From Hexactinellida sp. DTS-2022 (Eukaryota; Porifera; Hexactinellida), in NCBI GenBank assembly GCA_028753945.1, contig JAPNXP010000001.1, positions 6,128,501-6,192,500 on the forward strand: a stretch of DNA of 64,000 bases, written 5' to 3'. Numbering within the stretch: the stretch's first letter is position 1; each line of letters starts with the position of its first letter. This document shows, one piece after another, positions 1-31,371 of the stretch. The translations under genes were made by a program, and so were the position numbers. The notes under the pieces were generated by a model. That model had not been told where the DNA came from. It worked only from the letters and a program-made list of their open reading frames with translations, and made no database searches.

Positions 1-568
1 TTATCAACAATTGATTGTGGTACACAGTTGCTTCAATCATTAGCCTTTATTGCAGGCTATACTGTCCATCAGTACCTGAAACAAACAAAACCGTGTCATG
101 TCTGTACATATGCTAACAGTTGATAAAGAATTTCTCCTTGATTTAGACCTGGACTCTCAGTATAAACTTCTGCAGCTAACGTACCGTGGCGGACTTAAAT
201 ATCCATCTGAGCCTTTTTTAAATTCCATATTTGTTATATGGAAGACCTTTAGTGCCATCGAAAACAATAAAGAGCTGATGGCGAAGCTTGTAAGTGGACC
301 TTCTAGAAAAATACTAGTTGAACTCACGTTGATGTATTTGGAAGATAGCGATAATCGTGATCCAAGTATTAGGAAGTCTACTTGTATTAGCTGTGGTGTG
401 TTTAGTTGGAACATCTTATCGAAGCTCGTCCTTACTGCAGCGAATTGCTTTGGTGCAAAAATTAACAATGTTAAGAATTATAACTCGCTGGTTCTTTCAA
501 AAAGTATAGAAAGCGTAAATTTAAGAAATTCTCTTAATTATGTGTCTACTTATTTGTATTTACCATGA
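1..568 (+). pseudogene. P-element transposase C-terminus, frameshifted (copy 1)
   Basis: The first frame (1 to about 100) reads a stretch with LAFIAGY and CHVC, matching the C-terminal zinc-knuckle-like segment of the other P transposases here (LAFIAGYA, CLIC or CILC). The frame breaks just after CHVC. The next frame (about 107-568) resumes at TVDKEF and runs through the conserved RGGLKYPSE segment to a stop. A one-base indel near 105 explains this. The downstream part ends in KNYNSLVLSKS, matching KNYNVLVLKRD of P-A1, so the gene's 3' end is here. It is a relic: the upstream catalytic part lies off the window, and in copy 2 it is replaced by the duplication junction. Function would have been transposase, nuclear, DNA-binding. 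Confidence 0.8.
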
Positions 569-932
569 TTTGTATTACTCTGTTATTCTTATTTCTATTA
601 AGTAGTTAAGTGTGTCGTGTGTCACTGCTAGAGCCAGAGATAGAAAGAGGAGAGAGGAAAGAAAGCAAATAATTGTGTATTATTTACTGTATATTAATAC
701 ATAAATTGTACTGTTTGTGTTTATTATTACTATTAAATTATGAAAATCCAATCACCGTTCTCATTACAGCTAATACTAATCACGGGCTAGCACGGCTGAG
801 TTATGTTTACGACCTAGAGACCCATAAAGAACTTAGTAGTTCAATATAGAAAACATTAAAAAATTAAAATTTCCCATCTTCTTGTGCATCCCTGGTACAT
901 CTACTGTCAGGCCATATATAGAGTAGGCTATG
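1..932 (+). mobile_element. P-B1: 3' remnant of a P element, copy 1
   Basis: The fragment holds the C-terminal coding part of a P-type transposase (see the pseudogene entry) followed by noncoding sequence, and ends in a terminal inverted repeat arm at about 885-932. Read from the outside in, that arm starts CATAGCCTAC, as P-B2 and P-C do, and has the shared block ACCAGGGATG further in. The 5' part and the left arm lie outside the window. No target duplication can be read because only one end is present. Confidence 0.75.
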
Positions 933-1116
933 GTTCAAAGATGTAATCAAAAATCGTGACCCCAGGTGCACATCTGTAACCCATGATTCACCTATCCTGA
1001 CAATTTGGGCTTTTATTTAATAACACTCTGTTCTGTGGAGAGGATACGGACTAAAATACCAAGGCAGTCATTCCAATACTGGGCCACTATACTGTCACGT
1101 AGTGATAAGCTCCAGG
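933..1116 (+). repeat. Interspersed repeat with motif AATCGTRACCCCAGGTGC (copy 1)
   Basis: Between the P-B1 end and the P-A2 start lies about 180 bp related to sequence at about 43536-43720, including the downstream phrases on an uneven GCCACTATACT motif. Shorter related pieces starting with the same phrase lie at about 41250 and 42072. I see no coding potential. It may be the tail of an older element into which the P elements inserted. Confidence 0.5.
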
Positions 1117-1312
1117 AATAGCATTCTATACACAAGGCAATGGTGGTCACTAAAATTTTGGACCAGGGATTGGTTAAGTACTTCAAAACAACATTTTCTA
1201 AAATGGTAATTTGTTCAATTTTCCATTAATTTTAGCTACCCTCATCATCCTGACAACACATTATTGTCAATTAAATTGATTGGAAAATATAGGGAGTTTA
1301 ATATATAATATA

Positions 1313-2217
1313 CTAGCCGAAAAGCCGCCCTCCGGGCGGCGTTCTTCTGCTAGTTTACTACGCTTTGTATTTCGTGGTAAGTTTAATTTTCACGTTTTAA
1401 TCGCTTTCTCGCTGTATTGGGCGTTTGTTTACAATCATTACCAACACGCGAACGTTTTTTAAGTGGCATACGTAATAGTTGAATAACAGGTTTGGATTTT
1501 GTATGTAAATTATGACTGAAGTTGGAAAATATGTCAATCCGATCTATATATAGTCAGGTTCTTTTATTATGAACATTTAAAGGACCAAAAATGTGTTCAT
1601 AATAGAGAGACTTCATAATAAGCGAACTCAACTTAATACAACCCTATGTAAGTTGTTAAATTGGGACCATAAGGCTTGTTCATAATAAAAAATCTTCACA
1701 TTAAGCAGACGAAATCTTGTTCATAATAAGCAGACCTGACTGTATAGCAATAGGTATGACTATTAAATTGTCCAACAACACAAATGTAAGGTTGAATTTT
1801 ATTGGTCTATATGTATATTCAATTGTTGTTTATATTATGGGAAATCATAATGGAATACTGAACACAAATAACTGATTGGATGAATTAATTTACTCTCGCC
1901 CAATTAAATCACAGTCTCAGTTAGGCATTCTATACTGCACACTTAACAATTGATAGAGACATAAAAATCCTTTTATACGAATTGAATGCTAGATGCTAAT
2001 CCATACTGGAAAACCCTCGAATTTAATAGGCCTCTAGGTTTTGTCACCTTGGGGATGGGAAGATGTGAATATTTTTCTTAAAAATTCCTTATCTGGAGTG
2101 GTGAGATAATTCCTAGACAATATGCAAAATTTGGTACAGATCGGTTCAGGAATCTCAGAGAGATGTGAGGACAGACAGACAGACAGACAGACAGACATTA
2201 TATTTTATATATATAGA
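1313..2217 (-). mobile_element. Non-autonomous Helitron, 905 bp (copy 1)
   Basis: On the minus strand it starts TCTATATATATAAA and ends CTAG, inserted between host A and T with no duplication. Near the 3' end is a strong GC hairpin (about 1325-1342, arms GCCGCCC / GGGCGGC). The 5' part carries a GACA/TGTC microsatellite (about 2170-2200) and the words GTCCTCACATCTC and ACCAAATTT. Both occur at the same place in the Helitron at 24309, so the two are one family. The uninterrupted host sequence is visible in P-A1's left end (about 4540-4560), though it differs there by a few bases of TA repeat. No Rep/helicase coding is present. Confidence 0.8.
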
Positions 2218-2347
2218 TAATACAGTATACTCATACAAACAAAGATATTGATATAAATGTTATTATTATACTAAGGAGCTTAAGACATAAATACGTAAAT
2301 AGAGATATACTTCTAAGAGGGAGTAGCCACACTTAATACATCTACAG

Positions 2348-2460
2348 CAGTGGTTCCCAACCTGGGAACCATGGATCCCTTAGGGGTCCACGGATGGCTG
2401 TAAGGGGTCCACAGAATGACTATAGGGGGTCCACGGTTGAAAAAGGTTCGGGAATCGCTG
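2348..2460. mobile_element. hAT-type MITE, 113 bp, TSD ATCTACAG (copy 1)
   Basis: Imperfect inverted ends CAGTGGTTCCCAACC and CAGCGATTCCCGAACC are flanked by a perfect 8 bp duplication ATCTACAG (2340-2347, 2461-2468). The related P-A1 left end at about 4675-4690 shows the empty site with one ATCTACAG. The inside has three GGGGTCCAC-like repeats, typical of MITEs mobilised by ZBED/Buster-like hAT transposases. Noncoding. Confidence 0.92.
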
Positions 2461-2547
2461 ATCTACAGGAACAGCAGCAGGTTGACTGAATAAAACTAAC
2501 AGAAATAAAGAAAAATTAATTCTTGAATTTAGTAAGCTTACTAGTAC

Positions 2548-4355
2548 TGTTTCATTATATATTGACACGCATGATATATTGACACGCTTAACATATGATA
2601 CATACATACACCATGGATATTATATTACCATGATATATTGACACGCTTTTAACGTGCTGCGGTTTGCATCTTCCCATTGACTTGCATTTGTTGCATTGTG
2701 TTTTCTTACTTACTTGCATTTGTTGTATTGTGTTATCTTGCTTACTTGTATTTGTTAGAATGAGTTTTCATTAACAACCATATTTTGTTAAGTAACTAGT
2801 ACATTACCCAATCATTGTATAACGTGGTTGTGGTTTCACTATGAGCAAGGAATGAATAGATGTTTATTCGTTATTCATTCTCACAAATTTAATCCAACAA
2901 TTCCAACAAAACAAATGCAAAAACTATAACAATGACTACTTAGAATTCCAACAAATGCTGTGGCCCCATAAACTGCAACATTATTGATAATTTACTATAA
3001 ACTAATCGGATCTGATTAGGAAGAAATATAACTCGATATTCTTCGGAATTTATGGTCTTGGAACTCAGTACACGTATATTGAAAGTATGCTAATCAACTG
3101 AAATAGATTCTGTTGATTGTGCAAATTTGTAAGATTGGTATTCACAAGTCTTCATTCTTGTAACGGGCTCAAAATGGTGATCATAGTTGGTAATATAGAG
3201 GCACACTGATCCTGGAGACTTGCAACCAGAGTAGCGTAGCCACTCAATTCTTGTCCATCGATGTTCAGGACTATGTTGCTTGTTTGCGACGAATATATCT
3301 GCATTTAGCATTCTCGAAACATTTATAATTTCCACGTCAGTTGCCCATATACCAATCTCGGTCATTGCTGATCGCTTGAGGTAGGCCAAAGGTGAGGTGT
3401 CCTGATAAAACTTTGTTCTAAGATACTCTTTGGCAAACTCTTTCCCTTCGGTCACTATAAATCTGCAAATTTCTCCTCGTAGTCGTTCGTGATACTCTTG
3501 ACTACCAGTAATTGCTTGAGAAACACATCTGAAAAAACAGTTTCCATCTTTTACGATCGGATCCCATTGCCATGGTATTAGATTTGAGAGATGCTGTTCT
3601 GAAAGGGCCCTATGTTGTTCAATCTCTCTGAAAAATTTCAATTCCAGCTTGTTGCATATTTCTTGTTGCCAAACCATTGTAATAGGGTGATAACATGGGT
3701 TGAATTTGGAGGGCTGTAAAAGTGAAATTCTGCACGGAGAGGAAGTGATAGTTGGCGAAGTACTGAAATGGATCTTTTCAAGCTTTTCACAGACCTATCG
3801 AACATTAAATGAACAACTTTAAAATTCGGAGTTAATTTTCTGAGTTATGAACTTACCACTGGATAGAGAACTTTATGTGCATATTCAATACATAATCTGC
3901 TATCTGAATTAGCTTTGAATGCCTCTTGAGCCCAATTGAGAAGTATTTCCATCATCACTTCTCTCTATGAATACATTTATTCGGACAATCACAATAGGTG
4001 TACGTATATTGATAAAATGTTAACTAACATTCATCATAATTGTATTAAAGCATAAATTTACCATTGTAAATGCTTCAGTATCTTTAAGAAAGGAGAATAT
4101 CATTGTGTAGGTTGGACACATTTGTTTCTTTGGGGTATTATGTAGCTGTTCATGGAGCGGAGAGTACGAGGTACAATTCTTCAAGCTGTCGATGATTTCG
4201 CCCTAAGGTAATACAAATCTTTTTAATAATGCTATATTGTTGGGTGTTTGTTTGTAACCACGATTTCATAAACTCTTAGTATATTAGGTGAAACCATCAA
4301 AAATAATTTACCTGGAGATATTTCAGATCATTGATTATAGCGTCATGAGTGATAC
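2548..4355 (-). mobile_element. Ginger-2, 3' portion (copy 1)
   Basis: This is the duplicate of 7477-9284: the TIR (2548-2646), about 440 bp without a gene (2650-3089), and exons 8b-11 of the integrase-OTU gene. It stops at the CGTAGAC duplication (4356-4362), where the P-A1 fragment starts. The integrase half of the gene is not present in copy 1, so this copy cannot code for a transposase. Confidence 0.9.
3090..4355 (-). pseudogene. OTU half of Ginger-2 gene, duplicated fragment
   Basis: The same exons as in copy 2: 4312-4355 (part of exon 8), 4062-4202, 3857-3964 and 3090-3794. The last exon encodes an OTU cysteine protease domain with the catalytic motif KDGNCFFRC (Asp and Cys) and the C-terminal NYDHHFEPV (His). 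The triad is complete, so the deubiquitinase fold may be intact. However, the gene's start, zinc finger and DDE core are missing from this copy, because the duplication broke within P-A1. Expression would need a new promoter. See the entry at 8019-15956 for the full gene. Confidence 0.85.
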
Positions 4356-4362
4356 CGTAGAC

Positions 4363-4868
4363 CATAGCATTCTATACACTAAGGCAATGGTGGTCACTGA
4401 AAAATTTGGACCAGGGATTGGTTAAGTACTTCAAAACAACATTTTCTAAAATGATAATTTGTTCAATTTTCCCATTAATTTTAGCTACCCTCATCATCCT
4501 GACAACATATTATTGTCAATTAAAACGATTGGAAAATATAAGGAGTTTAATATATAATACAGTATACTCATACAAACACAGAAATTGATATAAATGTTAT
4601 TATGATACTAAGGAGCTTAAGACAGCAATACGTAATAGAGATATACTTCTAAGAGGGAGTAGTCACACTTAATACATCTACAGGAACAGCAACAGGTTGA
4701 CTGAATAAAACTAAAAGAAATAAAGAAAATTAATTCTTGAATTTAGTAAGCTTACTATTATCACGCTTCAATACTAGTACATTATAATTCTTAACTCTAT
4801 TAGATAATAAACAGTTGGAAACAGTGAGAAAAAGTTTTCGTAGAATGTCCCACCGCGATACATTGCAT
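4363..4868 (-). mobile_element. P-A1 left 506 bp (copy 1 of the duplication)
   Basis: This duplicates 9292-9797: the terminal arm CATAGCATTC..., the 3' noncoding region and the last codons of the P-A1 transposase (minus strand, ending at 4730). It is cut at 4868 and fused there to plus-strand P-B1 coding sequence. Two transposase C-termini therefore face each other tail to tail across the duplication junction. Confidence 0.9.
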
Positions 4869-5861
4869 AGCGTACTCCACTACTGATGGTGAGTTCAATT
4901 TGGAGCCATTTCTTGATGCGATTAATGATTTATCAACAATTGATTGTGGTACACAGTTGCTTCAATCATTAGCCTTTATTGCAGGCTATACTGTCCATCA
5001 GTACCTGAAACAAACAAAACCGTGTCATGTCTGTACATATGCTAACAGTTGATAAAGAATTTCTCCTTGATTTAGACCTGGACTCTCAGTATAAACTTCT
5101 GCAGCTAACGTACCGTGGCGGACTTAAATATCCATCTGAGCCTTTTTTAAATTCCATATTTGTTATATGGAAGACCTTTAGTGCCATCGAAAACAATAAA
5201 GAGCTGATGGCGAAGCTTGTAAGTGGACCTTCTAGAAAAATACTAGTTGAACTCACGTTGATGTATTTGGAAGATAGCGATAATCGTGATCCAAGTATTA
5301 GGAAGTCTACTTGTATTAGCTGTGGTGTGTTTAGTTGGAACATCTTATCGAAGCTCGTCCTTACTGCAGCGAATTGCTTTGGTGCAAAAATTAACAATGT
5401 TAAGAATTATAACTCGCTGGTTCTTTCAAAAAGTATAGAAAGCGTAAATTTAAGAAATTCTCTTAATTATGTGTCTACTTATTTGTATTTACCATGATTT
5501 GTATTACTCTGTTATTCTTATTTCTATTAAGTAGTTAAGTGTGTCGTGTGTCACTGCTAGAGCCAGAGATAGAAAGAGGAGAGAGGAAAGAAAGCAAATA
5601 ATTGTGTATTATTTACTGTATATTAATACATAAATTGTACTGTTTGTGTTTATTATTACTATTAAATTATGAAAATCCAATCACCGTTCTCATTACAGCT
5701 AATACTAATCACGGGCTAGCACGGCTGAGTTATGTTTACGACCTAGAGACCCATAAAGAACTTAGTAGTTCAATATAGAAAACATTAAAAAATTAAAATT
5801 TCCCATCTTCTTGTGCATCCCTGGTACATCTACTGTCAGGCCATATATAGAGTAGGCTATG
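4869..5861 (+). mobile_element. P-B1 3' remnant, copy 2
   Basis: Same content as 1-932 plus 60 bases cut off in copy 1. It includes the coding segment EFNLEPFLDAINDL, which matches EIDLEPFLKAISDL of P-C. The inverted terminal arm ends at 5861 (GGCTATG on the plus strand). Confidence 0.85.
4876..5497 (+). pseudogene. P-element transposase C-terminus, frameshifted (copy 2)
   Basis: The first frame covers DGEFNLEPFLDAIND and SLAFIAGYT with the CHVC pair. A one-base indel near 5034 shifts the frame. The second frame (about 5036-5497) gives the rest, with YRGGLKYPSE and the terminal KNYNSLVL. It is closest to P-B2 and P-C and more distant from P-A1, which reads ECLAFVAGYAVF. The catalytic part is missing, so it is a relic. 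Identical to 1-568. Confidence 0.85.
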
Positions 5862-6045
5862 GTTCAAAGATGTAATCAAAAATCGTGACCCCAGGTGCAC
5901 ATCTGTAACCCATGATTCACCTATCCTGACAATTTGGGCTTTTATTTAATAACACTCTGTTCTGTGGAGAGGATACGGACTAAAATACCAAGGCAGTCAT
6001 TCCAATACTGGGCCACTATACTGTCACGTAGTGATAAGCTCCAGG
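5862..6045 (+). repeat. Interspersed repeat with motif AATCGTRACCCCAGGTGC (copy 2)
   Basis: Second copy of the stretch at 933-1116, with the same relation to about 43536-43720. No gene seen. Confidence 0.5.
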
Positions 6046-6241
6046 AATAGCATTCTATACACAAGGCAATGGTGGTCACTAAAATTTTGGACCAGGGATT
6101 GGTTAAGTACTTCAAAACAACATTTTCTAAAATGGTAATTTGTTCAATTTTCCATTAATTTTAGCTACCCTCATCATCCTGACAACACATTATTGTCAAT
6201 TAAATTGATTGGAAAATATAGGGAGTTTAATATATAATATA

Positions 6242-7146
6242 CTAGCCGAAAAGCCGCCCTCCGGGCGGCGTTCTTCTGCTAGTTTACTACGCTTTGTATT
6301 TCGTGGTAAGTTTAATTTTCACGTTTTAATCGCTTTCTCGCTGTATTGGGCGTTTGTTTACAATCATTACCAACACGCGAACGTTTTTTAAGTGGCATAC
6401 GTAATAGTTGAATAACAGGTTTGGATTTTGTATGTAAATTATGACTGAAGTTGGAAAATATGTCAATCCGATCTATATATAGTCAGGTTCTTTTATTATG
6501 AACATTTAAAGGACCAAAAATGTGTTCATAATAGAGAGACTTCATAATAAGCGAACTCAACTTAATACAACCCTATGTAAGTTGTTAAATTGGGACCATA
6601 AGGCTTGTTCATAATAAAAAATCTTCACATTAAGCAGACGAAATCTTGTTCATAATAAGCAGACCTGACTGTATAGCAATAGGTATGACTATTAAATTGT
6701 CCAACAACACAAATGTAAGGTTGAATTTTATTGGTCTATATGTATATTCAATTGTTGTTTATATTATGGGAAATCATAATGGAATACTGAACACAAATAA
6801 CTGATTGGATGAATTAATTTACTCTCGCCCAATTAAATCACAGTCTCAGTTAGGCATTCTATACTGCACACTTAACAATTGATAGAGACATAAAAATCCT
6901 TTTATACGAATTGAATGCTAGATGCTAATCCATACTGGAAAACCCTCGAATTTAATAGGCCTCTAGGTTTTGTCACCTTGGGGATGGGAAGATGTGAATA
7001 TTTTTCTTAAAAATTCCTTATCTGGAGTGGTGAGATAATTCCTAGACAATATGCAAAATTTGGTACAGATCGGTTCAGGAATCTCAGAGAGATGTGAGGA
7101 CAGACAGACAGACAGACAGACAGACATTATATTTTATATATATAGA
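6242..7146 (-). mobile_element. Non-autonomous Helitron, 905 bp (copy 2)
   Basis: Same as 1313-2217: minus-strand 5' TC..., GC hairpin close to the 3' end, terminal CTAG, insertion between A and T, no target duplication. Noncoding. Confidence 0.8.
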
Positions 7147-7276
7147 TAATACAGTATACTCATACAAACAAAGATATTGATATAAATGTTATTATTATAC
7201 TAAGGAGCTTAAGACATAAATACGTAAATAGAGATATACTTCTAAGAGGGAGTAGCCACACTTAATACATCTACAG

Positions 7277-7389
7277 CAGTGGTTCCCAACCTGGGAACCA
7301 TGGATCCCTTAGGGGTCCACGGATGGCTGTAAGGGGTCCACAGAATGACTATAGGGGGTCCACGGTTGAAAAAGGTTCGGGAATCGCTG
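7277..7389. mobile_element. hAT-type MITE, 113 bp, TSD ATCTACAG (copy 2)
   Basis: Same element as 2348-2460, with duplications at 7269-7276 and 7390-7397. The empty site is in P-A1 at about 9604-9614. Confidence 0.92.
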
Positions 7390-7476
7390 ATCTACAGGAA
7401 CAGCAGCAGGTTGACTGAATAAAACTAACAGAAATAAAGAAAAATTAATTCTTGAATTTAGTAAGCTTACTAGTAC

Positions 7477-7575
7477 TGTTTCATTATATATTGACACGCA
7501 TGATATATTGACACGCTTAACATATGATACATACATACACCATGGATATTATATTACCATGATATATTGACACGC
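7477..7575 (+). repeat. Ginger-2 left TIR, 99 bp
   Basis: Contains three copies of TATATTGACACGC, two of them about 21 bp apart near the tip and a third near the inner end. The partner is 16183-16281; copy 1 has it at 2548-2646. The motif resembles TATTTTGAGACGC in the Ginger-1 TIR and is a candidate transposase-binding site. Confidence 0.93.
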
Positions 7576-8018
7576 TTTTAACGTGCTGCGGTTTGCATCT
7601 TCCCATTGACTTGCATTTGTTGCATTGTGTTTTCTTACTTACTTGCATTTGTTGTATTGTGTTATCTTGCTTACTTGTATTTGTTAGAATGAGTTTTCAT
7701 TAACAACCATATTTTGTTAAGTAACTAGTACATTACCCAATCATTGTATAACGTGGTTGTGGTTTCACTATGAGCAAGGAATGAATAGATGTTTATTCGT
7801 TATTCATTCTCACAAATTTAATCCAACAATTCCAACAAAACAAATGCAAAAACTATAACAATGACTACTTAGAATTCCAACAAATGCTGTGGCCCCATAA
7901 ACTGCAACATTATTGATAATTTACTATAAACTAATCGGATCTGATTAGGAAGAAATATAACTCGATATTCTTCGGAATTTATGGTCTTGGAACTCAGTAC
8001 ACGTATATTGAAAGTATG

Positions 8019-8723
8019 CTAATCAACTGAAATAGATTCTGTTGATTGTGCAAATTTGTAAGATTGGTATTCACAAGTCTTCATTCTTGTAACGGGCTCA
8101 AAATGGTGATCATAGTTGGTAATATAGAGGCACACTGATCCTGGAGACTTGCAACCAGAGTAGCGTAGCCACTCAATTCTTGTCCATCGATGTTCAGGAC
8201 TATGTTGCTTGTTTGCGACGAATATATCTGCATTTAGCATTCTCGAAACATTTATAATTTCCACGTCAGTTGCCCATATACCAATCTCGGTCATTGCTGA
8301 TCGCTTGAGGTAGGCCAAAGGTGAGGTGTCCTGATAAAACTTTGTTCTAAGATACTCTTTGGCAAACTCTTTCCCTTCGGTCACTATAAATCTGCAAATT
8401 TCTCCTCGTAGTCGTTCGTGATACTCTTGACTACCAGTAATTGCTTGAGAAACACATCTGAAAAAACAGTTTCCATCTTTTACGATCGGATCCCATTGCC
8501 ATGGTATTAGATTTGAGAGATGCTGTTCTGAAAGGGCCCTATGTTGTTCAATCTCTCTGAAAAATTTCAATTCCAGCTTGTTGCATATTTCTTGTTGCCA
8601 AACCATTGTAATAGGGTGATAACATGGGTTGAATTTGGAGGGCTGTAAAAGTGAAATTCTGCACGGAGAGGAAGTGATAGTTGGCGAAGTACTGAAATGG
8701 ATCTTTTCAAGCTTTTCACAGAC
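8019..8723 (-). CDS. Last exon of Ginger-2 gene: OTU cysteine protease domain
   Basis: This exon is open from its acceptor (AG|GTCTGTG) to the stop, 234 codons, so it begins well upstream of the internal ATG at 8606. The OTU core starts about 95 residues in, with WDPIVKDGNCFFRCVSQAI (catalytic Asp and Cys). It continues through RLRGEICRFIV and EIGIWATDVEI, with ADIFVA, and ends with YITNYDHHFEPV, where the second or first His would complete the triad. OTU enzymes cleave ubiquitin chains. In Ginger1 elements an OTU or Ulp1 protease follows the integrase; its role in transposition is not known to me. Confidence 0.9.
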   Translation of the reverse strand, partial: VCEKLEKIHFSTSPTITSSPCRISLLQPSKFNPCYHPITMVWQQEICNKLELKFFREIEQHRALSEQHLSNLIPWQWDPIVKDGNCFFRCVSQAITGSQEYHERLRGEICRFIVTEGKEFAKEYLRTKFYQDTSPLAYLKRSAMTEIGIWATDVEIINVSRMLNADIFVANKQHSPEHRWTRIEWLRYSGCKSPGSVCLYITNYDHHFEPVTRMKTCEYQSYKFAQSTESISVD

Positions 8724-11700
8724 CTATCGAACATTAAATGAACAACTTTAAAATTCGGAGTTAATTTTCTGAGTTATGAACTTACCACTGGATAGAGAAC
8801 TTTATGTGCATATTCAATACATAATCTGCTATCTGAATTAGCTTTGAATGCCTCTTGAGCCCAATTGAGAAGTATTTCCATCATCACTTCTCTCTATGAA
8901 TACATTTATTCGGACAATCACAATAGGTGTACGTATATTGATAAAATGTTAACTAACATTCATCATAATTGTATTAAAGCATAAATTTACCATTGTAAAT
9001 GCTTCAGTATCTTTAAGAAAGGAGAATATCATTGTGTAGGTTGGACACATTTGTTTCTTTGGGGTATTATGTAGCTGTTCATGGAGCGGAGAGTACGAGG
9101 TACAATTCTTCAAGCTGTCGATGATTTCGCCCTAAGGTAATACAAATCTTTTTAATAATGCTATATTGTTGGGTGTTTGTTTGTAACCACGATTTCATAA
9201 ACTCTTAGTATATTAGGTGAAACCATCAAAAATAATTTACCTGGAGATATTTCAGATCATTGATTATAGCGTCATGAGTGATACCGTAGACCATAGCATT
9301 CTATACACTAAGGCAATGGTGGTCACTGAAAAATTTGGACCAGGGATTGGTTAAGTACTTCAAAACAACATTTTCTAAAATGATAATTTGTTCAATTTTC
9401 CCATTAATTTTAGCTACCCTCATCATCCTGACAACATATTATTGTCAATTAAAACGATTGGAAAATATAAGGAGTTTAATATATAATACAGTATACTCAT
9501 ACAAACACAGAAATTGATATAAATGTTATTATGATACTAAGGAGCTTAAGACAGCAATACGTAATAGAGATATACTTCTAAGAGGGAGTAGTCACACTTA
9601 ATACATCTACAGGAACAGCAACAGGTTGACTGAATAAAACTAAAAGAAATAAAGAAAATTAATTCTTGAATTTAGTAAGCTTACTATTATCACGCTTCAA
9701 TACTAGTACATTATAATTCTTAACTCTATTAGATAATAAACAGTTGGAAACAGTGAGAAAAAGTTTTCGTAGAATGTCCCACCGCGATACATTGCATTCA
9801 CATACGAATCTCCAAAGTGTGCTATGCTCTAGTTCCATAGTGGCCCATGCCAGTTGAACAAGTTTTGTACTGGAAGAGCCTGAGTAAAAGTTGTCAAATT
9901 GTTCCCTATGACTGTCAATTTTGCTAAATATATCAAAAATTACCTTAATGCATTCAAGAACATGGCTCGATGGATATTTGAGAGAACCCCTATCTAACAA
10001 TTCTATGAGTATAGACTGACTGCCCATGTCATCATTCACTTGTAAGGATTTTTCAGTACACAGAAATTTCCTGCACAATATACAATTACTAGATTTTTTG
10101 AGATAAGAAAATACAGCATAGCCAGCGACAAACGCGAGGCACTCAACTTGAGATGCTGCCATTTCCGGAAGGCTGATTTCATTTAAGGTTGACAAAAGGA
10201 ATCTACATCAAAACTAGCAGCATGTTCATCGTCATTTGAGTGAAAAAATGTACCTAAATACTCTAAGAGACTAGTAGGTCTCTCAATAGTATCAGATTCT
10301 CTTTTGATCTGAAACAATTTTAGAATATTAGAAAGCTGAAGCCGGCGCTCAGACTCCAGGATTTGGCAATATGAAATGTGATACTGTGAACCTGACATTT
10401 GCCGGTACAAACCAAAATGGTGTTCTAAAGCATCGTTTTGTATCCTTGATGTCAGAAGGTATTTGAAACCATATTTTGTACAAATCAATTCGAGTAGTAA
10501 AGGTAATGCCTTGCAGCTTTGTATAAAACTTTTAAAAGATTGAGGAGATAATTTTCCTTTCGCTGTAGGAAGAGCTCTCCAGCACTCTAACCAAGACACA
10601 AAGTTTTTGAGAAACAATAATCGCGAGTCGTTCAAACACAAGGGTGCAGACATTTCGTCATTAAAACGAATATTCTTCCCTACCCAGTTCACATTAAACA
10701 TTTTCCAAACATCATTGATTAATTTCAAAAATTCAACAGTTTGAGTTTTGTCTACAATGTTCTTTTCCAAGTTATATGCTAACAGTCCCGCTGATGTTGA
10801 TTCGTGAAAAACCCTAAGTGCTAAATTGACATTTTGTCTTTCCAGGCTAGATGGCCAACAGGCTTTTGATGTTAATCTGGGAGCACGCTTGAATAAATTG
10901 CACTTATCCGAATTGAATACAGTTCTTATGTCCTGAAAGGCTGAATAGCATATGGTAGGGTACATAGAATTAGAAAATGAACTGGTATCGATACCAAGTT
11001 CTGAGGTTTTGATGGAAACTCTGAGGTTATTAGGAGGCTTATTTTCGGTATATGTGTAGTCATGAGGTTTGCATTCAGTAAATTTTGGGAAGATAAAGAC
11101 CTTTTCGTAGTCTTTTAAATTGAGCCAATTGTTCCTAACAGACTTAATAATATGCACAACGTCAAAGAATAAAATTAGATCTCTGAATGGATCACATGGA
11201 TGTTTTACTATGGGCATCAGAGATTTTTGGTCAGCTGAAAAAAGTTTAAATAAACTGACATTTAGTGGGTAGTTATCAGTGCATATTGCGTCAACATATA
11301 TATTACATCTTTCGATATCAGAGATAGTTTTTGTAACAATGGGAAAAAGAGCCGTAGCAGAGCTAGAACCGAGAGGGACTAGACGTACAATTGTGGAAAA
11401 TTTTGTCATAAAACTAGATACCATCATAGAAAACACAGTTGTAGGTGGATCTTCCGGATGGTCAATAGAGCCTATTATTTTACCACCTTTATAGCTGGCA
11501 TCACTACGTATGTGTACTTCGTCCATTTGAAGTATGACGTGTCGCTCGCTGTCATTAAATGAGGATGAAAACTCTTTAAGAACATTTAGATAATCGCTAT
11601 CTAAACCGATAGAATTTTTTATTTTGAGGAGATTACGCTCATGTGGTAGAGTTAAACAATTCGAAGATTGAATAAGACGGTAACAAGCTGGTGAAATACC

Positions 11701-14700
11701 ATGAACCTTAAGGGAAAAAACCTGTGTTAAAACACTATATCGGCGCCCAAATTTGGAAACTTTCAAAGATTTCAATTGGTCAAGTAAAAAATGAAACCCT
11801 ATTTTTGATGAATTAAAGAGGTTATCATTTATAGCTTCGTCGGCAGCGAAATCTAAATCATCATGATCTAGTAATTTAATAACGTGTTCCAAATTATTAA
11901 TGGCATTTTCTAGGCAGGTTGTAACAGTGGGTTGTGGTGTTTCTGAACTTTGATTAATCTTAGGCCTAGGTAAACAATCTATTTCTAATAACAGGGTCTC
12001 AATTTGACGGATGTCACTAACTTGGTTCATGGAGAGATCTATTTGATATTTTTGTTGATGAAAGGCCGTGATATATAAATCAGAATTTATCGCAAGCGAT
12101 GCTTCAATATGAGGTTGACTATCCTTATTAACTAGGATCTTAAGGAAAATAATAGAATTTAAATCCGGTATATGACTAGTCCAACCATTGGAGAGGTCAA
12201 TGTATGACAATTTATCAATAATATCAGCAATTAACGAAATTGAAAACTTAGCTGTTGTGGTTGCACTCTCTTCTCTGCTTAGCTTCATTGCTGTTTCAGT
12301 CAGGGTTACTTCTTTCTGTTCTCTTGAGAATCTCCTCGGTCTTTCATTGGTGTCAGAGAGGTAGCTGGGACAGTTTGGGAAAATGCATGGTATCGCAGAC
12401 TTAGATACGGCATATTTTTGGCGAGGTACATCAACATATTTACTTCCATCAAAATATCTTATTGATTTTTCGATATCTTCCTCTTTAAAGTGGAGTATGC
12501 ATATCTAGATGTATACAAAAATACAGTTGAAGTGGCACCTTGTTAATCAATTATTACCTATACGGTTAAATAAGGTGTATTTGAGGTCAAACTAAGGAAA
12601 ATTTCAATAACGAGGTTCAGATTGCATAATCAACACTTGTACTTTTAATTAATTAAATTATTATATTAACTGATCAGAGTTTCGTTGAAAAATCATTATT
12701 TTAATGTAAGAATTTCTAACCCTTGGAATCTTGTTGTTTTGGTAGTCTTCTCTGGGTCTGGGAATAGCCTTGAACCATTTTTCCCGAAGATCCTCATCTT
12801 TTGGGAAATTAAAAATTTTCGTGAAATCTTCTCCTCTGTAATTGGAGGTACAGCCAGGCACAACACAAGACATCGTATTCAGTCAGATAGATATTATACT
12901 GGTTGAGGTATGTATTTGGAATAAGTGCGAGTGGATTGGAATGAAGGGGCAAATAATTTTTTTTTTAGAATCCCATTAATATCCATCAATGTAAATTTTT
13001 ACATTATGGGTGGATAAAAAAAGGTGGATAAAAATAAGATGTTTAAGACCTTAAGTGACACGCAATATCAATTCCTTTGAACATCAGTTCAAATACAAGT
13101 ATACTCATATAGATTACTAATGAGTCAGGCCTGCTTATTATGAACAAAATATAGTTAATTAATTGTTAATTTCTATTTTATATTAAAAGCTTATTAGTTA
13201 TTTTCCCAATTAACAATTTAAATTTAAAATGTATTCGAGTTCGTATATTATTAAATTTGTGTATAATGAACACAATCCATTATACACGAGGCTGATTGTA
13301 ACTATTAAATAAGGATTTTATTAAACTAATGTACAAAATAACGAAAAATCATTTTGTCTAGTTGAAGTATTTAACCAATCCCTGGTCCAAATTTTTTAGT
13401 GACCACCATTGCCTTAGTGTATAGAATGCTATGCGTAGACATATCGGATGGGTGATCTCTAATATAAGATAGTATATGTTATTATACTGTTATTTTCTTA
13501 ATATACTAGTTTATTGTAAATCCTAACTATTTATTTACTTTGTCTCGTTTCAGATTAGCATTTGTTTGGATATCACTGTGTGGCCTTTTGAGATAATTTG
13601 TAGAAGCAATGTGAACTGTTGTTGGTGTTGGTGATTTAGATTTAGATTTCTGTTAATACAAGTAGAACATTATTATCTTGAAAAATATAGTCACTGGTGC
13701 AATCTCGCAACAACTAAAATAATTCGGTGAAATATTTACCTGTATCTTTCGACTGTTGTATCTTTTTGTTAGGTTCAAAGGATACGTTTTGGGGCGATCG
13801 TTTTTAGCGCACGGTTCGACAACATGGCTTCTGACTTCTTTAGCTTCAAAAGGCCCGAGATATTTCATCTGAGTTTTAGTACCAGGTATTTTCTTGTCTT
13901 TCTGGATATATTTCTTGCTAAAAACAAGTCGCCTTTTTCGAGCTCCGATCTAAATAAACAAAATTCAATTCGAAAATATTTCCTGGCCTCATTAATTACC
14001 CTAAGATGAAACATAATATGGTAGGTATTAAATTGGTTACCATCGCAATAATTTCTATGAATTAGTGATATGCATTTAAGATTTACCTATTATCCTTCAC
14101 TTTTCTGTCATAAATTTTTTTCTGTCTGAATTGCTCAATCTTTATATTCATTCGAGCTTCAATTTCGTTTTGGGTACGAATATTTCGTAATTCATTCATT
14201 GTTTCATTAACAGATTCTATGGGCACATCGAATGGACAATGAGATTCAGCTAGGGGAGTATCTTCATCAAAGAGTAAGTTTTCCGGATTGGCATGCACGC
14301 TGGTGGTATTACTTAACTTTAATAAGTGTGTCGGGTCGCATTTCCGCCCAAACATCAATTCGAATGCCGGGAATCCTGTTGACCTTTTGATCTTGGTGTT
14401 TGAAGAAAAGGATGCAAGAGGTAATTTCATTAGCCAGGTACCATCAGAGTGCAGGCGTAATTTCTCAATCACTCTATTTCAATGAAACAACATTACACCA
14501 CAATTTGATAATGTATACTAGTATGTTTGAGCATACCTCTTAAGAATCTTATTATGTGATTCAACCAATCCGTTGCTTTGTGGATGGTATGCAGTAGTGC
14601 TTCTATTATCGACGCCAAGATTTAGGTGAAAATCTTTGAATTCCTAAATTGATTCATCCTTTAATCGTAAGATTATATCATACTTGTGCAGTAACTGTAT

Positions 14701-15956
14701 GTTGAATTGCTGAATAAGTAAATACTTTACTCAACGTCAACAAATATTGATTATAATATCACATCAATGTACGTGCAAACCGCAAAATGTAATAATAAAT
14801 TGTGGTAACTATGATATTACAGAAATATCAATTACTTGACAGATTCTAAATTTTCTACAAAGAAAAAATCATACGTATACAGCATACTATATTTCGTTTA
14901 CAGTTGCTTCGTGAAATAATGTCAAGTTTTAAATGATACGGATAACTTTCCTAATTTAAAAAATGGTTAACAACCAATCAATTACTGACCTTACTAGTGA
15001 ATTCCCTGCCTTGATCATGCTGAATGATGGATGGCACACCATAGGTCAGATAAATATTACGTAACTGAGCTAAGACTTCTGTTGATATTTTTGTCTTGAG
15101 TGGACGTGCAACTACTAATTTTGAAAGGTAGCATACTGTAACTAGGATATGCAAATATCCGAAATCATTTGCGGGCATATTGTTGATCAGATCGATGCAG
15201 ATATGCTGCCAAGGGCCTTGAGGCGGAACGATTGGTTTGAGCTCGCGTTGTGGGTGAGGAGGCTTAGGGGCTGTTACTTGACATCCATGGCAAGTCTTTA
15301 CCTATAATATTAGTATATAAATTTGTAGAAATAGTACCCTTTACATACTCAATATTTGCCAACAAACATAAACTGATGTATCACATAGGAAATATTAATT
15401 AATTGAGCAATTGATGCGCTGTTATTAATTAGCAAAGGTTTTTGTAAAAATACTATAGATTATTTATATTGTATCATTCTGTTCAAGAAAATATGGAAAA
15501 CCCCCGATATACATCGGGTATAAAGAATCAGAACAGGAATATAAATTAACGAAATGCACCTACGTATTGTGTGATATCATCTGTCATTCCAACCCAATAG
15601 TATTTAACACGTATTGAGGACATCATTGTATTCATACCTGGATGATCTGTATGGTAGAGGTCAAGAAGCTCAGGGATTTTAGACTTCATTGGGTACTCGA
15701 ATTGTTCAACTTTCCCCGATCGATTTTGTATTTGCTACAATATAGTTCATAATCTTAAGACCAAAAAATTTAATTAAAAACATATATTTCGTACCTTGAA
15801 AAGTTTTCCGTCCTCGGATATTCGGAAAGAAAATGCTTTTCGACGAAAGTTATTTCTGGCATATCTCCTTGCTTTAGGAGAACCTTGCTGAATCTCTAGT
15901 GGGAGGTTTCCAGTACGTAAAAAGTTATACAAGTTTTTGTGATCTTCGGGGTTCAT
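8019..15956 (-). CDS. Ginger-2 integrase-OTU transposase gene, 11 exons, interrupted
   Basis: Cut-and-paste transposase with a fused OTU-type deubiquitinase. Exons on the minus strand, all GT-AG: 15795-15956 (ATG at 15956), 15564-15734, 14990-15301, 14537-14643, 14087-14473, 13740-13949, 13539-13649, exon 8 split as 13434-13458 and 9241-9284, 8991-9131, 8786-8893, 8019-8723. The H2C2 zinc finger spans exons 2-3 (YHTDHPG then TCHGCQ). DDE residues are in CIDLINN, IIQHDQGREF and SNGLVESHNK. A GPY/F-type motif reads LGPFEA. The OTU Asp/Cys are in KDGNCFFRC and His in NYDHHFEPV. Lesions seen: P-A1 within exon 8 and a missing base in the A run 13920-13924. With one TSD copy removed and one base allowed there, the exons total 828 codons including the stop. 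Confidence 0.88.
9659..12873 (-). CDS. P-A1 THAP/P-element transposase, one frameshift
   Basis: Nuclear cut-and-paste transposase related to Drosophila P transposase and animal THAP9. Exon 1 is 12721-12873 and starts MSCVVPGCTSNY, the first half of a THAP C2CH zinc finger. The intron is 12505-12720 (GT-AG). Exon 2 starts at 12504 with ICILHFKEED, giving the second Cys and the His, then SAIPCIFP, the usual THAP end. The catalytic region has MDEVHIRSDASYKGGK (first Asp), CTDNYPLNVSLFKLF (second Asp), DVVHIIKSVRNNW and DALEHHFGLYRQMSG (probable acidic Glu). The C-terminus has ECLAFVAGY and CILC. One base is missing near 10190: P-A2 reads GATTCGTATTTG where this copy reads GATTCCTTTTG. With that base the gene would be about 999 codons. 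It is the least damaged P gene here. Confidence 0.92.
13365..13433. repeat. P-A1 right terminal inverted repeat
   Basis: About 69 bp, the reverse of 9292-9360, ending GCTATG. Contains the inner ATCCCTGGT (reverse of ACCAGGGAT), a candidate transposase site. Confidence 0.93.
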
Positions 15957-16182
15957 TTGAAAGAATGGATTACAACTTATAAAATGTTATTTATTGTTAT
16001 CAGTTTTATATTCGGATCTTGTAACTTACGAAATATAAAGAATCCTTATTGGAAACCGCAGCACGTTGCGTGTCAATATATAATGACTTTTTTGCATAAT
16101 ATACAATGTTTCTTATTGCAAACCGCAGCACGTTGCGTGTCAATGTGCAATGACTTTTAGCATAATACAATGTTCCTATCAT

Positions 16183-16281
16183 GCGTGTCAATATATCATG
16201 GTAATATAATATCCATGGTATATGTATGTATCATATGTTAAGCGTGTCAATATATCATGCGTGTCAATATATAATGAAACA
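16183..16281 (-). repeat. Ginger-2 right TIR, 99 bp
   Basis: Reverse of 7477-7575 with a single T/C difference seen. Carries the GCGTGTCAATATA motif three times. Confidence 0.93.
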
Positions 16282-17651
16282 GTACTATCACGCTTCAATA
16301 CTAGTACATTATAATTCTTAACTCTATTAGATAATAAACAGTTGGAAACAGTGGGAAAGTTTTCGTAGAATGTCCCACCGCGATGAATTGCATTCACATA
16401 CGAATCTCCAAAGTCTGCTATGCTCTAGTTCCATAGTGGCCCATGCCAGTTGAACAAGTTTGCACGGGAAGAGCCAGAGTAAAAGTTGTCAAATTTTTCC
16501 CTATGACAGTCAATTTTGCTAAATATAGTATCAAAAATGACCTTTATGCATTCAATAACATGGCTAGATGGATATTTGAGAGAACCCCTATCTAACAATT
16601 CTATCAGTATAGGCTGACTGCCCATGTAATCATTCACTTGTAAGGATTTTTAGTACACAGAAATTTCCGGCACAATATACAATTACTAGATTTTTTTTTG
16701 ATAAGAAAATACAGCATAGCCAGCGACAATCGCGTGGCACTCAACTTGAGATGCTGCTATTTCCGGAAGGCTGATTTCATTTAAGGTTGACAAATACGAA
16801 TCTACATCAAAACTAGCAGCATGTTCATCGTCATTTGAGTGAAAAATGTACTTAAATACTCTAAGAGACTGGTAGGTCTCTCGATTGTACCAGATTCTCT
16901 TCTGATCTGAAACAGTTTTAGAATATTAGAAAGCTGAAGCCGGCGCTCAGACTCCAGGATTAGACAATATGAAATGTGATGCTGAGAACCTGACATTTGC
17001 CGGTACAAACCAAAATGGTGTTCTAAAGCATCGTTTTGTATCCTTGATGTCAGAAGGTATTTGAAACCATTTTTTGTGCAAATTAATTCGAGTAGTAAAG
17101 GTATTGCCTTGCAGGTATGCATAAAACTTTTAAAAGTTTGAGGAGATAATTTTCCTTTCGCTGTAGGAAGAGCTCTCCAGCACTCTAACCAAGACACAAA
17201 GTTTATGAGAAACAATAATCGAGAGTCGTTCAAACATAAGGGTGAAGACAGTTCGTCATTAATACGAATATTCTTCCCTACCAGTTTACATTAAACATTT
17301 TCCAAATATCATTGATTAATTTCAAAAATTCAACAGTTTGGGTTTTGTCTACAATGTACTATTCCAAATTATATGCTAATAGTCCCGCTGATGTTGATTC
17401 GTGAAAAACCCTAAGTGCTAAATTGACATTTTGTCTTTCCAGGCTAGTTGGCCAACAGGAATTTGATGTTAAGCTCGGAGCACGCTTGAATAAATTGCAC
17501 TTATCCGAATTGAATAAAGTTCTTATGTCCAGAAAGGATGAATAGCAAATGGTAGGGTACATAGAATTGGATAATGAACTGGCATCGATACAAAGTTCTG
17601 ATGTATTGATGGAAACTCTGAGGTTATTAGGAGGCATATTTTCGGTATGTG

Positions 17652-19335: not shown

Positions 19336-19690
19336 AGCAAGACCGCGTAGGATTTATTTATCCGTAGCGAAGTGACCGAGACCGAAGGGCTTATGATATA
19401 TCTTTCCCCAAAAGTTGCAATTTACAGAAAATTATTTTTCAAAAACCTTAAGTTTGACTAGAACTTAATTAATCAAAAATCTTAGATTTCCGCTAAGTTT
19501 TCTAAGTATCAGAAAACCTAACCAAAACTAAGCAAAAACTTAAATTTTTCTTAGATTTTGGTCAAAGTTAAGCATAATCTAAGATTTCAGGTAAATTTTC
19601 CTAACTTTATGAAAACTGAACAAAAACTAAAGAAATGCTAGTGAATAAGACCAAGGTGTTTATTTTGATGCAAAAATGAAAAATCGTAAA
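19336..19690. other. AT-rich stretch without a gene
   Basis: Here the match to P-A1 stops and the 177 bp satellite has not yet started. It contains short loose repeats of the type AAAACTTAARTTTT and CTTAGATTTT. No ORF, arm or RNA gene recognised. Confidence 0.5.
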
Positions 19691-21880
19691 GTGTACAAGT
19701 AGTAACCCGGAAACTGCACTTCGTTTATTTACATTCATTTGAGAGGTTTAAAGTAAAGAAAAAGCTTTTTTCGTGCATTGACTGTCAAAAAACTCCAAAT
19801 TGATAAATTCGTATTTTTAAGAACTTTGCCAGCTGAATCTTCTGATGCAAAAATTCTCTTTATTCAAAAGTGTGCAGACAGTGCCCTTAGAATTGCACTT
19901 CATTATTTTAATTCATTTATCAAGTTTAAATCGAGAAAAACCTTTTTTTCGTGCATGACTGTCAAAAACTCCCAAATTTATATATTCGCGGTTTAAGCAC
20001 TTGACCAGCTGTTTCTTTTGATTCTAAAAATTCACTATTTTCAAAGGTGTGCAGACAGTGCCCCTAGAATTGCACTTCATTATTTTATATTCATTTATGA
20101 AGTTTAAATCAAGAAAAACCTTTTTCAAATGCAATGACAGTCAAAAACTCCCAAATTGATAACATCGTTGTTTAAGGACATTCCCGGATGTTTCTTCTTC
20201 ATGATAAAAATAATATATGGTCAAAGATGCAGAAATACACTTACGATTGCACTTCATTAATTAATTTTCAATTAAGTGGTTAAAATCCAGAAAAAACTTT
20301 TTTTCGTGCAATGACTCAAAAACTCCCAAATTCATAAATACTTTTTTGAAAAACTTTGCCTGCTGAATCATTGTTCCAAAAAATTCTATATATTCAAAAG
20401 TGTGGAGACAGTTACCTAGAATTGCACTACATTATTTTAAATTCATTCACTAGGTTTAAAACAAGAAAAAACATTTTCTTGTACAAATGAATGTCAAAAA
20501 AGACCCTAATTGATAATTTCTTGTTTTAAGGATATTCCAGCTGTCTCTTTCGATGCTAAGAATTAATTTAGTCAAAAGTCTGCAGTCAGTGCCCCTAGAA
20601 TTGCACTTCATTACTATATATTCATTTATCAAGTTTAAATCAAGAAATCCTTTTTCTACTACCATAAATGTCAAAAGACTCCCTACTTGATATCATCGTG
20701 GTTTAAGGACTTTTTCGGCTGTTTGTTTTGATGCAAAAATTCTTTATGTTCAAAAGTGTGCAGACAGAATCCTAGAATTGCACTTCATTAATTTAAATTC
20801 ATTTATCTGATTTAAAACAAGAAAAAACATATTCTTGTACAATGGATTTCAAAAAATCCAAACTGTTAAATTCGTGTTTAAGGACTTTTCCGGCTGTTTC
20901 TTTTGTGTTTATTGGAACAAATACATCAGAAAGACCATATCTAACGTTTGTATATGGTTATGAGTCTCTACTAATATAATTTCCATTGTAATGAGCTATT
21001 TTCAACAGCAAAACTTTGATTTCACCACTTTTAACCATTCTCAATGCTCTATTCCACAACATTGGTAAGATTAGTGTTTTAATTACTATATCCAAGCCAT
21101 CACTGACTAAATAATCAACAATTCATCAAAATGAATACTAAAAAGTGATAATGTGAAACTTTATGTCCTTAAATCTCATTCGAGGGTACGTTTTCTTGTC
21201 CATTTTTCTCAGACACCCGAGGAGCTTGAATCAAAATATACATGTTCAAAATTCTCGCAATACCCGACTTCTTATCCGTGCATAATACATTTTGTGGCCC
21301 TAAAAGCCACCATTTCAAAATGACCATATATGGTAAAGCATGTGCCCATTTTTGTTGACACAGCAAATTTCTCTATCCTAGAGTGTAAACTCTAGAGCTT
21401 AGCTCTAACCATCTAATCACATCAATATTCCACTACAAACTCATTGGAAGAACAAATGTTACCTTATCCAAATGGTTACAATCCTATAAATTCACATGCC
21501 CATATATGTTGATGTCATTTCAGTGATGTGACAATAAACCTTTAAACTAATTAATATGCAAGAGCTTAACTCTAACTTCCTAGTAATATCAATGATCCAT
21601 TTCAAGTTAGTATCAAGAAAAACCTTTTTCTAGTGCAATAGACGTCAAAAAACTCCCAAATTGTTAAATTCGAGGTTTAAGGTCTTTGCAAGCTGTTTCT
21701 TCTTCATGACAAAATTGTATATAGTAAAAGGTGTGCAGACAGTATCCCTAGAAACGCAGATCAATATTTTATATTAATTTATCAGGTATAAATACAGAAA
21801 AACCTTTTTTTCGTGCATTAACTGTCAAAAACAAACAAATTGATAAATTCGAGTATTATTCTGCTTAAATTAATGTAAAT
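19690..21880 (+). repeat. 177 bp satellite, direct-orientation block
   Basis: Monomers of 175-178 bp are marked by TGCAATGACTGTCAAAAACTCC-type phrases at about 19774, 19951, 20126, 20304, 20481, 20660, 20837, then 21637 and 21812. Each unit also has a GTGTGCAGACAGTGCCCCTAG-like phrase and AATTGCACTTCATTA. Copies are strongly diverged (roughly a fifth of bases by eye). Small ORFs in it are chance. Confidence 0.9.
20906..21597. other. Unrecognised insert in the 177 bp satellite
   Basis: The satellite phrase stops after GCTGTTTCTTTTG and resumes at about 21600 (AAGTTAGTATCAAGAAAAACC). The 690 bp between are unique, with no ORF above 65 codons and no inverted ends I could find. It may be an old decayed element. 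Confidence 0.5.
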
Positions 21881-22440
21881 GAACCAAGTCAGATTTCAGG
21901 GTTACTATAAGTTAAACCTTTGAAGATATACAATTTTTGCATCAAAAGAAACAGCCGACACTGTCCATAAACCACGAATTTATGAATTTGTGAGTTTTTG
22001 ACAGTCATAGCACCAAAAATGGTGTTTCTTGATTTAAAAAAAACTTGAATGAATGTAAATGAAGAAGTGCAATTTCAGGGGTACTATCTGCACACAGTTT
22101 TACGATATTTAATTTTCAGCATCAAACAAACAGCCAGCTACGTCTTTAAACCAAGAAATTATCAATTTAGGAGTCCGTTGACAGTCATTGCAAAATAATG
22201 GTTTTTCATGATTTCAACCTCTTAAATGAATGTAAACGAACGAAGTCAACTTTCAGGGGGTGAGTATGGACATCTTTGACGATATATAATTTGAATATTC
22301 AAAGGAAACAGCTGGCGACGTCCTTAAACCTCGTATTTAGCAATTTAGGAGTATATTGATAGTCATTGCAAGAAAAATGATTTTCTGAATTTAAACCTGT
22401 TAAATGAATGTGAATGAACGAAGTCCGATTTCATTGAGGT
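21881..22440 (-). repeat. 177 bp satellite, inverted block
   Basis: The same monomer now reads in the reverse sense, e.g. GAGTTTTTGACAGTCATAG at about 21993, then at about 22170 and 22345, with CAATTTAGGAGT before each. The switch of orientation falls in about 21850-21900. Confidence 0.85.
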
Positions 22441-24734: not shown

Positions 24735-24877
24735 TGTTGTGTGGTATTTTGTGACGCTGTGGTATTTTGAGACGCCTATATGATACACTCTATACACCAT
24801 GGATGTGCTATTACAATTTAGACTGTTGTATTTTGAGACGCTGTCGTATTCTGAGGCGCAACTATATAAGGTAAATT
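24735..24877 (+). repeat. Ginger-1 left TIR, about 143 bp
   Basis: Contains four copies of a motif of the form TATTTTGAGACGC (one TGTGACGC, one TATTCTGAGGCGC). The partner is 32718-32860, with few differences. Confidence 0.93.
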
Positions 24878-26385
24878 ATATTAATCTCCTTGTCTACAAC
24901 TATCACAACACAATCAATCAATCAATCAATCAAACAAACTAATCAAACTAAACCAAACCAAATAATCAATCATTTCTATTCTGATTTTCAAATGAATTCA
25001 GAAGAGTATCAAGAAATTATTCAGTTTCTTTTCACGGCAAAAAAGATGGAATTACAAAAGAAAACTGTCCCCCTATTTCATTGCAGAATCTGACACACTA
25101 TTCAAGGTGAGATTTTTTTTTTAACTCCAAAATGACTCGCTATACTAATAAATAATCCCATTATTTATATATTAATTAAAATACAGTAGATCCTCTTTAA
25201 TTAACAGCCACTGCATAACGGTTACTTGTCTATAACGAAAATTTGCCCTGTCCTTTCCTGGTCCTTATTAATTAGCAGGTTCTACTATATTTCATTTAAT
25301 AGTTTTAATTAATCTTCTCCTTAGAGAGTTAAACTGGGAGGTACAGAAACAGATTTGGAAGTTCCATTGAAGTTTCAGTAGGATAATATTTATCAAAGGT
25401 TCCATGACCAAGTTGGTCATCCAGGGATTCACGCCACTCTTCATTCAGTTCAGCAAAGATACACATGGACAGGCATGCACATTGACGTTCGAGATTATGT
25501 AAGTTAATATGATAATGAAATTTATTTGAACAATTTGTATTTAATGTCTTTCGAATTAAAATTGCTTAATTAATAAGGGTAACTTATTTACTCAAAATAG
25601 GAAAATTAGTTACTTTTCAAATTATAGCCAACTAGATCACCTTGGTACTCATTTTGAAACTTCCACCAATCTAATCTTTGACTTCAGTACGAAAATTTCC
25701 CTATTTCCTAACGATTATATAATTATATAATTATCCCTTAACCTACTATTAGTTCGATTTATTTTGAATTAAAGGCAATTTTAAATGTTATGTAGATATA
25801 TTCATTTGATTTATTTTACAATTACTGGGTAAATTGCATTGCAATTATCAATTCAGTAGAATTATCAATTCAGTACAGTACATACTCGAATCACGGAATC
25901 AGACGTGCCGATTTCTATTCCCAACTAAATTCTGCTAGTACGTACTCTAGAAAATTGTCAGCAGAACTCCGTTAGTGTTTTGATTGTCTGAGTACGTGAC
26001 AACCAAAATACTTTTATATTATCGTTGAGATGTTTGAAGACTTGTATACCATTTATATCTTATTTACACAATTAACAAGTCAGCATTTCGACCTGTGGAT
26101 TATGCATACGGTTAAGACATGCCTTCGGGAAGTAGCGTACTTTGTCTTGTTTCCTAAAGCTTGTACGCCATAGAGTTCTATTATATTTCTATTCTAATTG
26201 ATGTACGTACATCCCAAAATAACATTAGAATGCAGTGTTAGTGGAACATTTGAGTTGAATCATCCATGTGCTGTAATCGTAATTATTAAGTTCTAGATTG
26301 TTTAATTAGTAAAGCATTTTATTTAGACGACTAATAGCAACTAACATGATTTCGCAAGATCCCAAATTGTTTTTATATCTATTTT

Positions 26386-26798
26386 TAGGGCTGAAACGAT
26401 TATACCGAATATTCGAAAATTCGTTCGAAATGATTGAACGAATATTCGTTCGTTTGCAAAGGAATATTCGTTACGAAACGAATATTCGTTTGGACGAATA
26501 TTAGATTGAAACGGATATTCGTTAACTAATTTTGGGCAACAACAAGACTTTTGTATAGCTGAGAAATATTGTAAATATATATTCCCACTTAAACTAGCTG
26601 ATTATTAGTCAACTTGTGTATAATACACTTTGTGACTATTATTATACCATTCTAAGATTATCAAAAACCTATTTTCCAATGTATTTTGTCTCTTGAAATT
26701 GATTTAATGCTTAGTCATCCAAACGAACGAATATTCGAATATTCGTTCGTTTAGAAAAATGTTCGTTCTTTACATTTCGAATATTCGTTTCAGCCCTA
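26386..26798. mobile_element. hAT-type MITE, 413 bp, TAGGGCTGAAACG ends
   Basis: Inverted ends TAGGGCTGAAACG and CGTTTCAGCCCTA, followed by dense CGAATATTCGTTCG palindromes. The flanking 8 bp TCTATTTT / TATATTTT differ at one base. A second copy of exactly the same length lies at 36094. It sits in intron 2 of the Ginger-1 gene. Confidence 0.9.
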
Positions 26799-31312: not shown

Positions 31313-31371
31313 ATGTTTCATGTCTCAGTTTTGTGCTACAATGATTTACAAATTACAACTATAAATACCAC

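Follow-up and report, generated by a model that had tools for sequence, protein, structure and literature searches.

The element at positions 7477–16281 of the window (W1), which is bounded by terminal inverted repeats (TIRs) and flanking GTAC and carries its gene on the minus strand, is very probably a defective Ginger1-like DNA transposon with a single spliced integrase–OTU gene, belonging to a lineage whose joints with target DNA fall at A^GNNC T. We read this lineage as Ginger1-like with a changed choice of target, and it is the GNNC target of Ginger1-like elements that is new here. The window is the whole stretch of DNA that was analysed, 64,000 bases with a GC content of 34% (G000:C1:6128501-6192500), within a genome of 112,398,167 bases in 18 contigs.

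The two TIRs, located at 7477–7575 (plus strand, 3′ side of the gene) and 16183–16281 (minus strand, 5′ side), were delimited by inverted-repeat detection and direct comparison; they are identical at 98 of 99 positions and start with TGTTTCATTATATATTGACACGC. GTAC lies directly beyond each of them, as read at the junctions (7473–7476 and 16282–16285), so that both the 99-bp TIRs and the paired GTAC claimed in the first-pass annotation are borne out. An alternative reading with TIRs of 113 nt was rejected, 14 of those bases being GTAC plus ten flanking bases. No LTR structure was found for W1.

A profile search with integrase and OTU models, which the first-pass annotation had proposed, placed Integrase_H2C2 in exon 2 (2e-9), rve in exon 3 (9.1e-8; at 32.7 bits, barely over the Pfam cut-off of 32.6) and OTU in exon 11 (7.8e-8), all of them over cut-off in W1 as well as in L065, a relative on contig C12; the family-B core in L052 scores 29.1 with rve, under the same cut-off. 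The catalytic residues of the W1 integrase have DD35E spacing: the first D is separated from the second by 58 residues, and the second from the E by 35. The D, C and H of a complete triad all stand in the expected motifs of the OTU piece. A GPF motif was found by eye in exon 6 and in L065, and exon 1 carries an FL....P, a mere candidate for the YPYY motif upstream of the finger, which is aligned in a published figure. By Pfam, catalytic spacing and motif reading, the zinc finger, three acidic positions, GPF motif and OTU triad noticed earlier are thus all present. Among sequences in the PDB, exon 3 best matches foamy virus integrase (E 2.1e-6), with Ty3 at E 0.0049, and the best match of the OTU piece is OTUD1 (E 1.9e-5).

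The predicted gene comprises 11 exons and ten introns of 60–346 bases, each with GT-AG borders. On the minus strand, it runs from exon 1 with the ATG (15795–15956) through exon 2 with the H2C2 zinc finger (15564–15734), exon 3 with the rve core and two catalytic D (14990–15301), exon 4 with the catalytic E (14537–14643), exon 5 (14087–14473), the frameshifted exon 6 with the GPF motif (13740–13949) and exon 7 (13539–13649) to an exon 8 in two parts; the first of these (13434–13458) ends in one copy of a 7-bp duplication made by a P-type element, and the second (9241–9284) is preceded by the other copy (9285–9291; together 9241–9291). Exon 9 (8991–9131), exon 10 (8786–8893) and exon 11 with the OTU domain and the stop (8019–8723) follow. 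All exons were placed by their borders, in combination with Pfam for exons 2, 3 and 11, catalytic spacing for exons 3 and 4, the triad for exon 11, a counterpart in L065 for exon 1 and comparison with L065 for exon 6. Exon bases total 2483, one less than 828 codons, as a single frameshift is expected to give; with that frameshift, the minus-strand GT-AG model of 828 codons put forward at first pass holds.

The core exon of L065 (listed in the rve-exon search under L028) is 78% identical to that of W1, and L065 has counterparts, with exon borders, for W1 exons 1–6, part of exon 8 and exons 9–11; none was found for exon 7 in the L065 alignment. In the aligned parts, changed codons between the two elements divide into synonymous and non-synonymous as 7:16 in exon 1, 15:14 in exon 2, 36:23 in exon 3, 34:48 in exon 5, 4:5 in part of exon 6, 6:4 in exon 9 and 54:59 in exon 11. 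We read these raw counts as pointing mostly to constraint, less so in exon 1. Between W1 and L009, a copy of its own family on contig C16, the ratio summed over six exon pieces is 13:15.

Two lesions disable the gene. Exon 8 is split by a guest P-type element of 4,142 bases (9292–13433, minus strand), recognised by repeats and Pfam, which has THAP and TNP-like RNase H domains, 72-nt TIRs and a 7-base duplication on either side, as against 8 bp for Drosophila P; in L009, the same site is uninterrupted by P. The frame of exon 6 changes within about 13,925–13,900, where L065 stays in one frame, and the remaining exon pieces have an open frame. Both the P insertion and a second lesion by frame error had been called from the first reading, and both stand. 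The flanks of W1 (7142–7475 and 16283–17651) are themselves parts of the guest P sequence, at 93–98% identity; with P sequence on its flanks as well as inside it, W1 was received by P and in turn received P.

Across seven terminus types, the 4-bp duplication reads GNNC, mostly after an A. At the left ends of family B, GNNC is present in 37 of 40 cases and A at −5 in 38 of 40, counts that include the L081 end moved by one base (36/40 and 37/40, respectively, before the shift); AG and C occur together in 35/40, and the three ends without GNNC have GCAT, GTAA and CTTC. Right ends of the same family have GNNC in 22/22 and A at −5 in 16/22. CCGG, CCGT or ACGG is found at 0/40 left and 0/22 right ends, in agreement with the earlier suggestion that the target is another one. 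For comparison, the background frequency per base in the window is 0.0325 for GNNC and 0.0027 for AGNNCT.

Left and right duplications agree in 21/22 family-B elements (L053/L075 are off by one base) and in 8/8 elements of other kinds, 29/30 in total. Both ends of the latter were read: they are W1 (GTAC), L009 (GGCC), L064 (GTGC), L065 (GTAC), elements on C8 (GTAC), C16 (GTGC) and C4 (GATC), and a second, decayed Ginger1-like element of the window (24735–32860, plus strand), identified by its flanks and by domain comparison and bordered on either side by GGTC, as stated in the first reading. Of the words for which a genome search was advised there, GTAC was thus read at L065 and on C8, and GGTC at this second window element. 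GNNC also lies at 13 single ends (L029, L034, L062, L063, L010, L031, L038, L041, L043 and L137–L140), picked by known end sequence or by the similarity border between copies. The non-palindromic words GTTC, GGTC and GTGC recur in direct orientation, which identifies them as duplications and not as part of a longer inverted repeat. Not all insertions are independent, since L114, L126 and similar sites share flanks or a flanking repeat. Family G (L135/L136) was excluded from the target list because its two copies are similar upstream of the terminus too; no terminus was found in five of 19 end windows (L117, L120, L123, L124 and L128) or in L047, and these are uncounted. No description of a GNNC target was found in the literature covered, which included available portions of PMC2836005, PMC12863088, PMC10045372, PMC5753468 and PMC9004415, with subscription journals and Repbase reports outside its scope.

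At the insertion point of W1 itself, GTAC is absent from 31/31 other P copies examined. These are the guest P, L141–L150 and L151–L170, from 40 rows found, with left-side sequence diverged in L165 and L166; outside the 31 are whole or partial P copies at C8:957462, C5:1340945, C2:3207105, C10:2869754 and C15:2319761, the tandem-duplicate copy at C1:6133211, and three rows of the W1 flanks or their duplicate. A short distance downstream, the P sequence itself contains TACTAGTAC, so that a patch may have been copied. The GTAC of W1 would thus be either a private change in the host P allele or a junction of other origin. That, for W1 alone, it is no true target duplication but was carried in or born at the junction, W1 having arrived otherwise, would agree with the P copies; we nevertheless consider this unlikely, as the preceding A and following T fit the word of the other copies, and further elements whose flanks are unrelated also have GTAC in duplicate. 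The target finding as a whole does not depend on W1. The same region contains a tandem duplication (window 1–4868 and 4930–9797) with a unit of 4,929 bp, which extends 63 bases upstream of the window and repeats the OTU half of W1; it is either very recent or an assembly fault. The recurrence of 4,868 bases at this spacing with 100% identity could suggest that the nested layout at 7–16 kb is partly a product of assembly, a reading that we hold to be very improbable in view of the TIRs, gene order and duplication word of W1, which are found in independent copies on other contigs.

According to the available portions of the original description (Bao, Kapitonov and Jurka 2010; PMC2836005), Ginger1 elements are defined by a finger, a DDE core, GPY/F and YPYY motifs and a C-terminal OTU/Ulp1 or PHD domain, together with TIRs of about 40–270 bp, TGTNR ends and CCGG or CCGT/ACGG duplications; Table 1 gives them 0–4 introns, their families are small, and their excision mechanism is called unknown. 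W1 resembles them in its H2C2 finger, DDE core, GPY/F motif, C-terminal OTU domain, TIRs within the 40–270 bp range, 4-bp duplication and possession of introns. It differs from these published features in its GNNC word as opposed to CCGG/CCGT, in its TGTTT as opposed to TGTNR ends (the TGTTG of family B fits TGTNR), in having ten introns instead of 0–4, and in the abundance of its relatives, the core exon having at least 150 matches in this genome, whereas the families of that description are small (PMC2836005).

Other integrase-bearing systems are further removed. Ginger2/TDD elements, as described in PMC2836005, are likewise integrase-like DNA transposons with an H2C2 finger, a 4-bp duplication and a symmetric target (RTATAY), but they are without GPY/F and YPYY and use another word, whereas W1 has GPF and GNNC. 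Integrases of Gypsy/Ty3 elements and foamy virus have a similar core, at the E values given above, but belong to reverse-transcribing elements, whereas W1 is bounded by TIRs and has its own predicted spliced gene. In contrast to Polinton/Maverick elements, for which PMC10045372 and PMC2836005 give no N-terminal zinc finger and a 6-bp duplication, W1 has a finger and 4 bp. GIN1, GIN2 and Imagin are multi-exon integrase genes of Ginger1 origin, but they are host genes without TIRs, and Imagin has lost its DDE residues (PMC2836005, PMC12863088). Domains, TIRs and the finger and 4-bp duplication that set W1 apart from Polintons support its first-pass identification as a Ginger1-like DNA transposon with an integrase–OTU gene. 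Judged by the published description, we read W1 as closest to Ginger1 and as probably working like it; it is not filed as a standard member because its target word departs from that of the group and its own ends depart from TGTNR.

On balance, we lean towards a sister lineage of Ginger1, still or recently mobile, in which the target switched from a CCGG-like word to A^GNNCT while the 4-bp stagger was kept, and in which the integrase–OTU gene is rich in introns. W1 might instead be an ordinary Ginger1 member, the published CCGG/CCGT rule being too narrow for the group, an interpretation that we regard as a serious but less probable one. Every domain and TIR feature tested fits it, and the published word was derived from 112 Hydra elements, that is from one species according to the Figure 1 legend of PMC2836005; against it, that word is termed highly specific and used to define the group in the same source, and not one of the 40 left ends carries CCGG, CCGT or ACGG. 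We give very little credence to a branch of Ginger2, Gypsy or Polinton that gained its OTU domain independently: weak hits in the PDB to integrases of retroviruses and of Ty3 point in that direction, and Ginger2 too has a reported symmetric, AT-flanked target (PMC2836005), but GPF is absent from Ginger2, and the finger and the 4-bp duplication argue against a Polinton origin. A Gypsy origin is opposed by L064 and L065, which are about 4.2 kb long, end in TIRs and have a single gene, no LTR having been found.

DDE integrases join 3′ ends at staggered target positions, and gap filling gives the duplication; the stagger of foamy virus integrase is 4 bp, and the target words of retroviral-type integrases are weak in general. 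In the lineage described here, the transposase would pair two TG..CA ends and attach the 3′ ends of the element to the two target strands at positions offset by 4 bp; repair of the gaps would then yield the 4-bp duplication. With joints at A^GNNC T, recognition by the protein would involve the outer G:C pairs and the A/T beside them, with no demand on the two central bases, and the symmetry of the word may reflect a two-fold symmetric complex contacting the outer bases. The OTU domain might spare the transposase from ubiquitin-driven loss or handle repair factors, a repair role for it in Ginger1 having been suggested by Bao et al. (PMC2836005). That the gene is transcribed and spliced, its protein active and the element excised is presumed. 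If the sister-lineage reading is true, its many families would form a natural series for the integrase residues that set the target and for the role of the OTU domain. Close relatives with a strict word unlike that of their published cousins should make target choice mappable on the protein by comparison, and in a genome rich in near-identical copies, both excision and the part played by the OTU domain would become amenable to experiment.

Searches of the genome gave at least 150 matches to the rve exon (the best 150 scored of 871 candidates), with an in-frame stop in 29/150 rve-exon rows among the matches listed, and at least 150 to the OTU exon (the best 150 of 712). L048 and L051 are 99.67% identical over 3.0 kb, and L025 and L028 99.77% over 2.6 kb, which suggests recent movement in relatives of W1. 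Its own family is represented by broken or partial copies only, among those examined: L009 is 91–98% identical to W1 over the non-TIR aligned stretches and 100% in one TIR, and has broken frames and no recognisable integrase-core exon; L010 is a fragment; and L029, of which one end was read, has a core 91% identical to that of W1. The recent activity that had been claimed for the W1 family thus finds little backing in its broken sister and its fragment; it is for the relatives at 99.7–99.8% that recent movement is suggested instead.

At L009:4943-6588, DNA unmatched to W1 stands where W1 has its integrase core exon. Outside this genome, a viral_contigs scan for relatives returned 105 pattern matches, none of which was confirmed. 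An OTU relative with 29% identity lies in a 905-aa open frame at G000:C1:13273850-13274404 and C15:3351813-3352367, perhaps part of another kind of element. Elsewhere in the window, at 19649–22432, similar repeats are arrayed at offsets of roughly 180 bases in both orientations.
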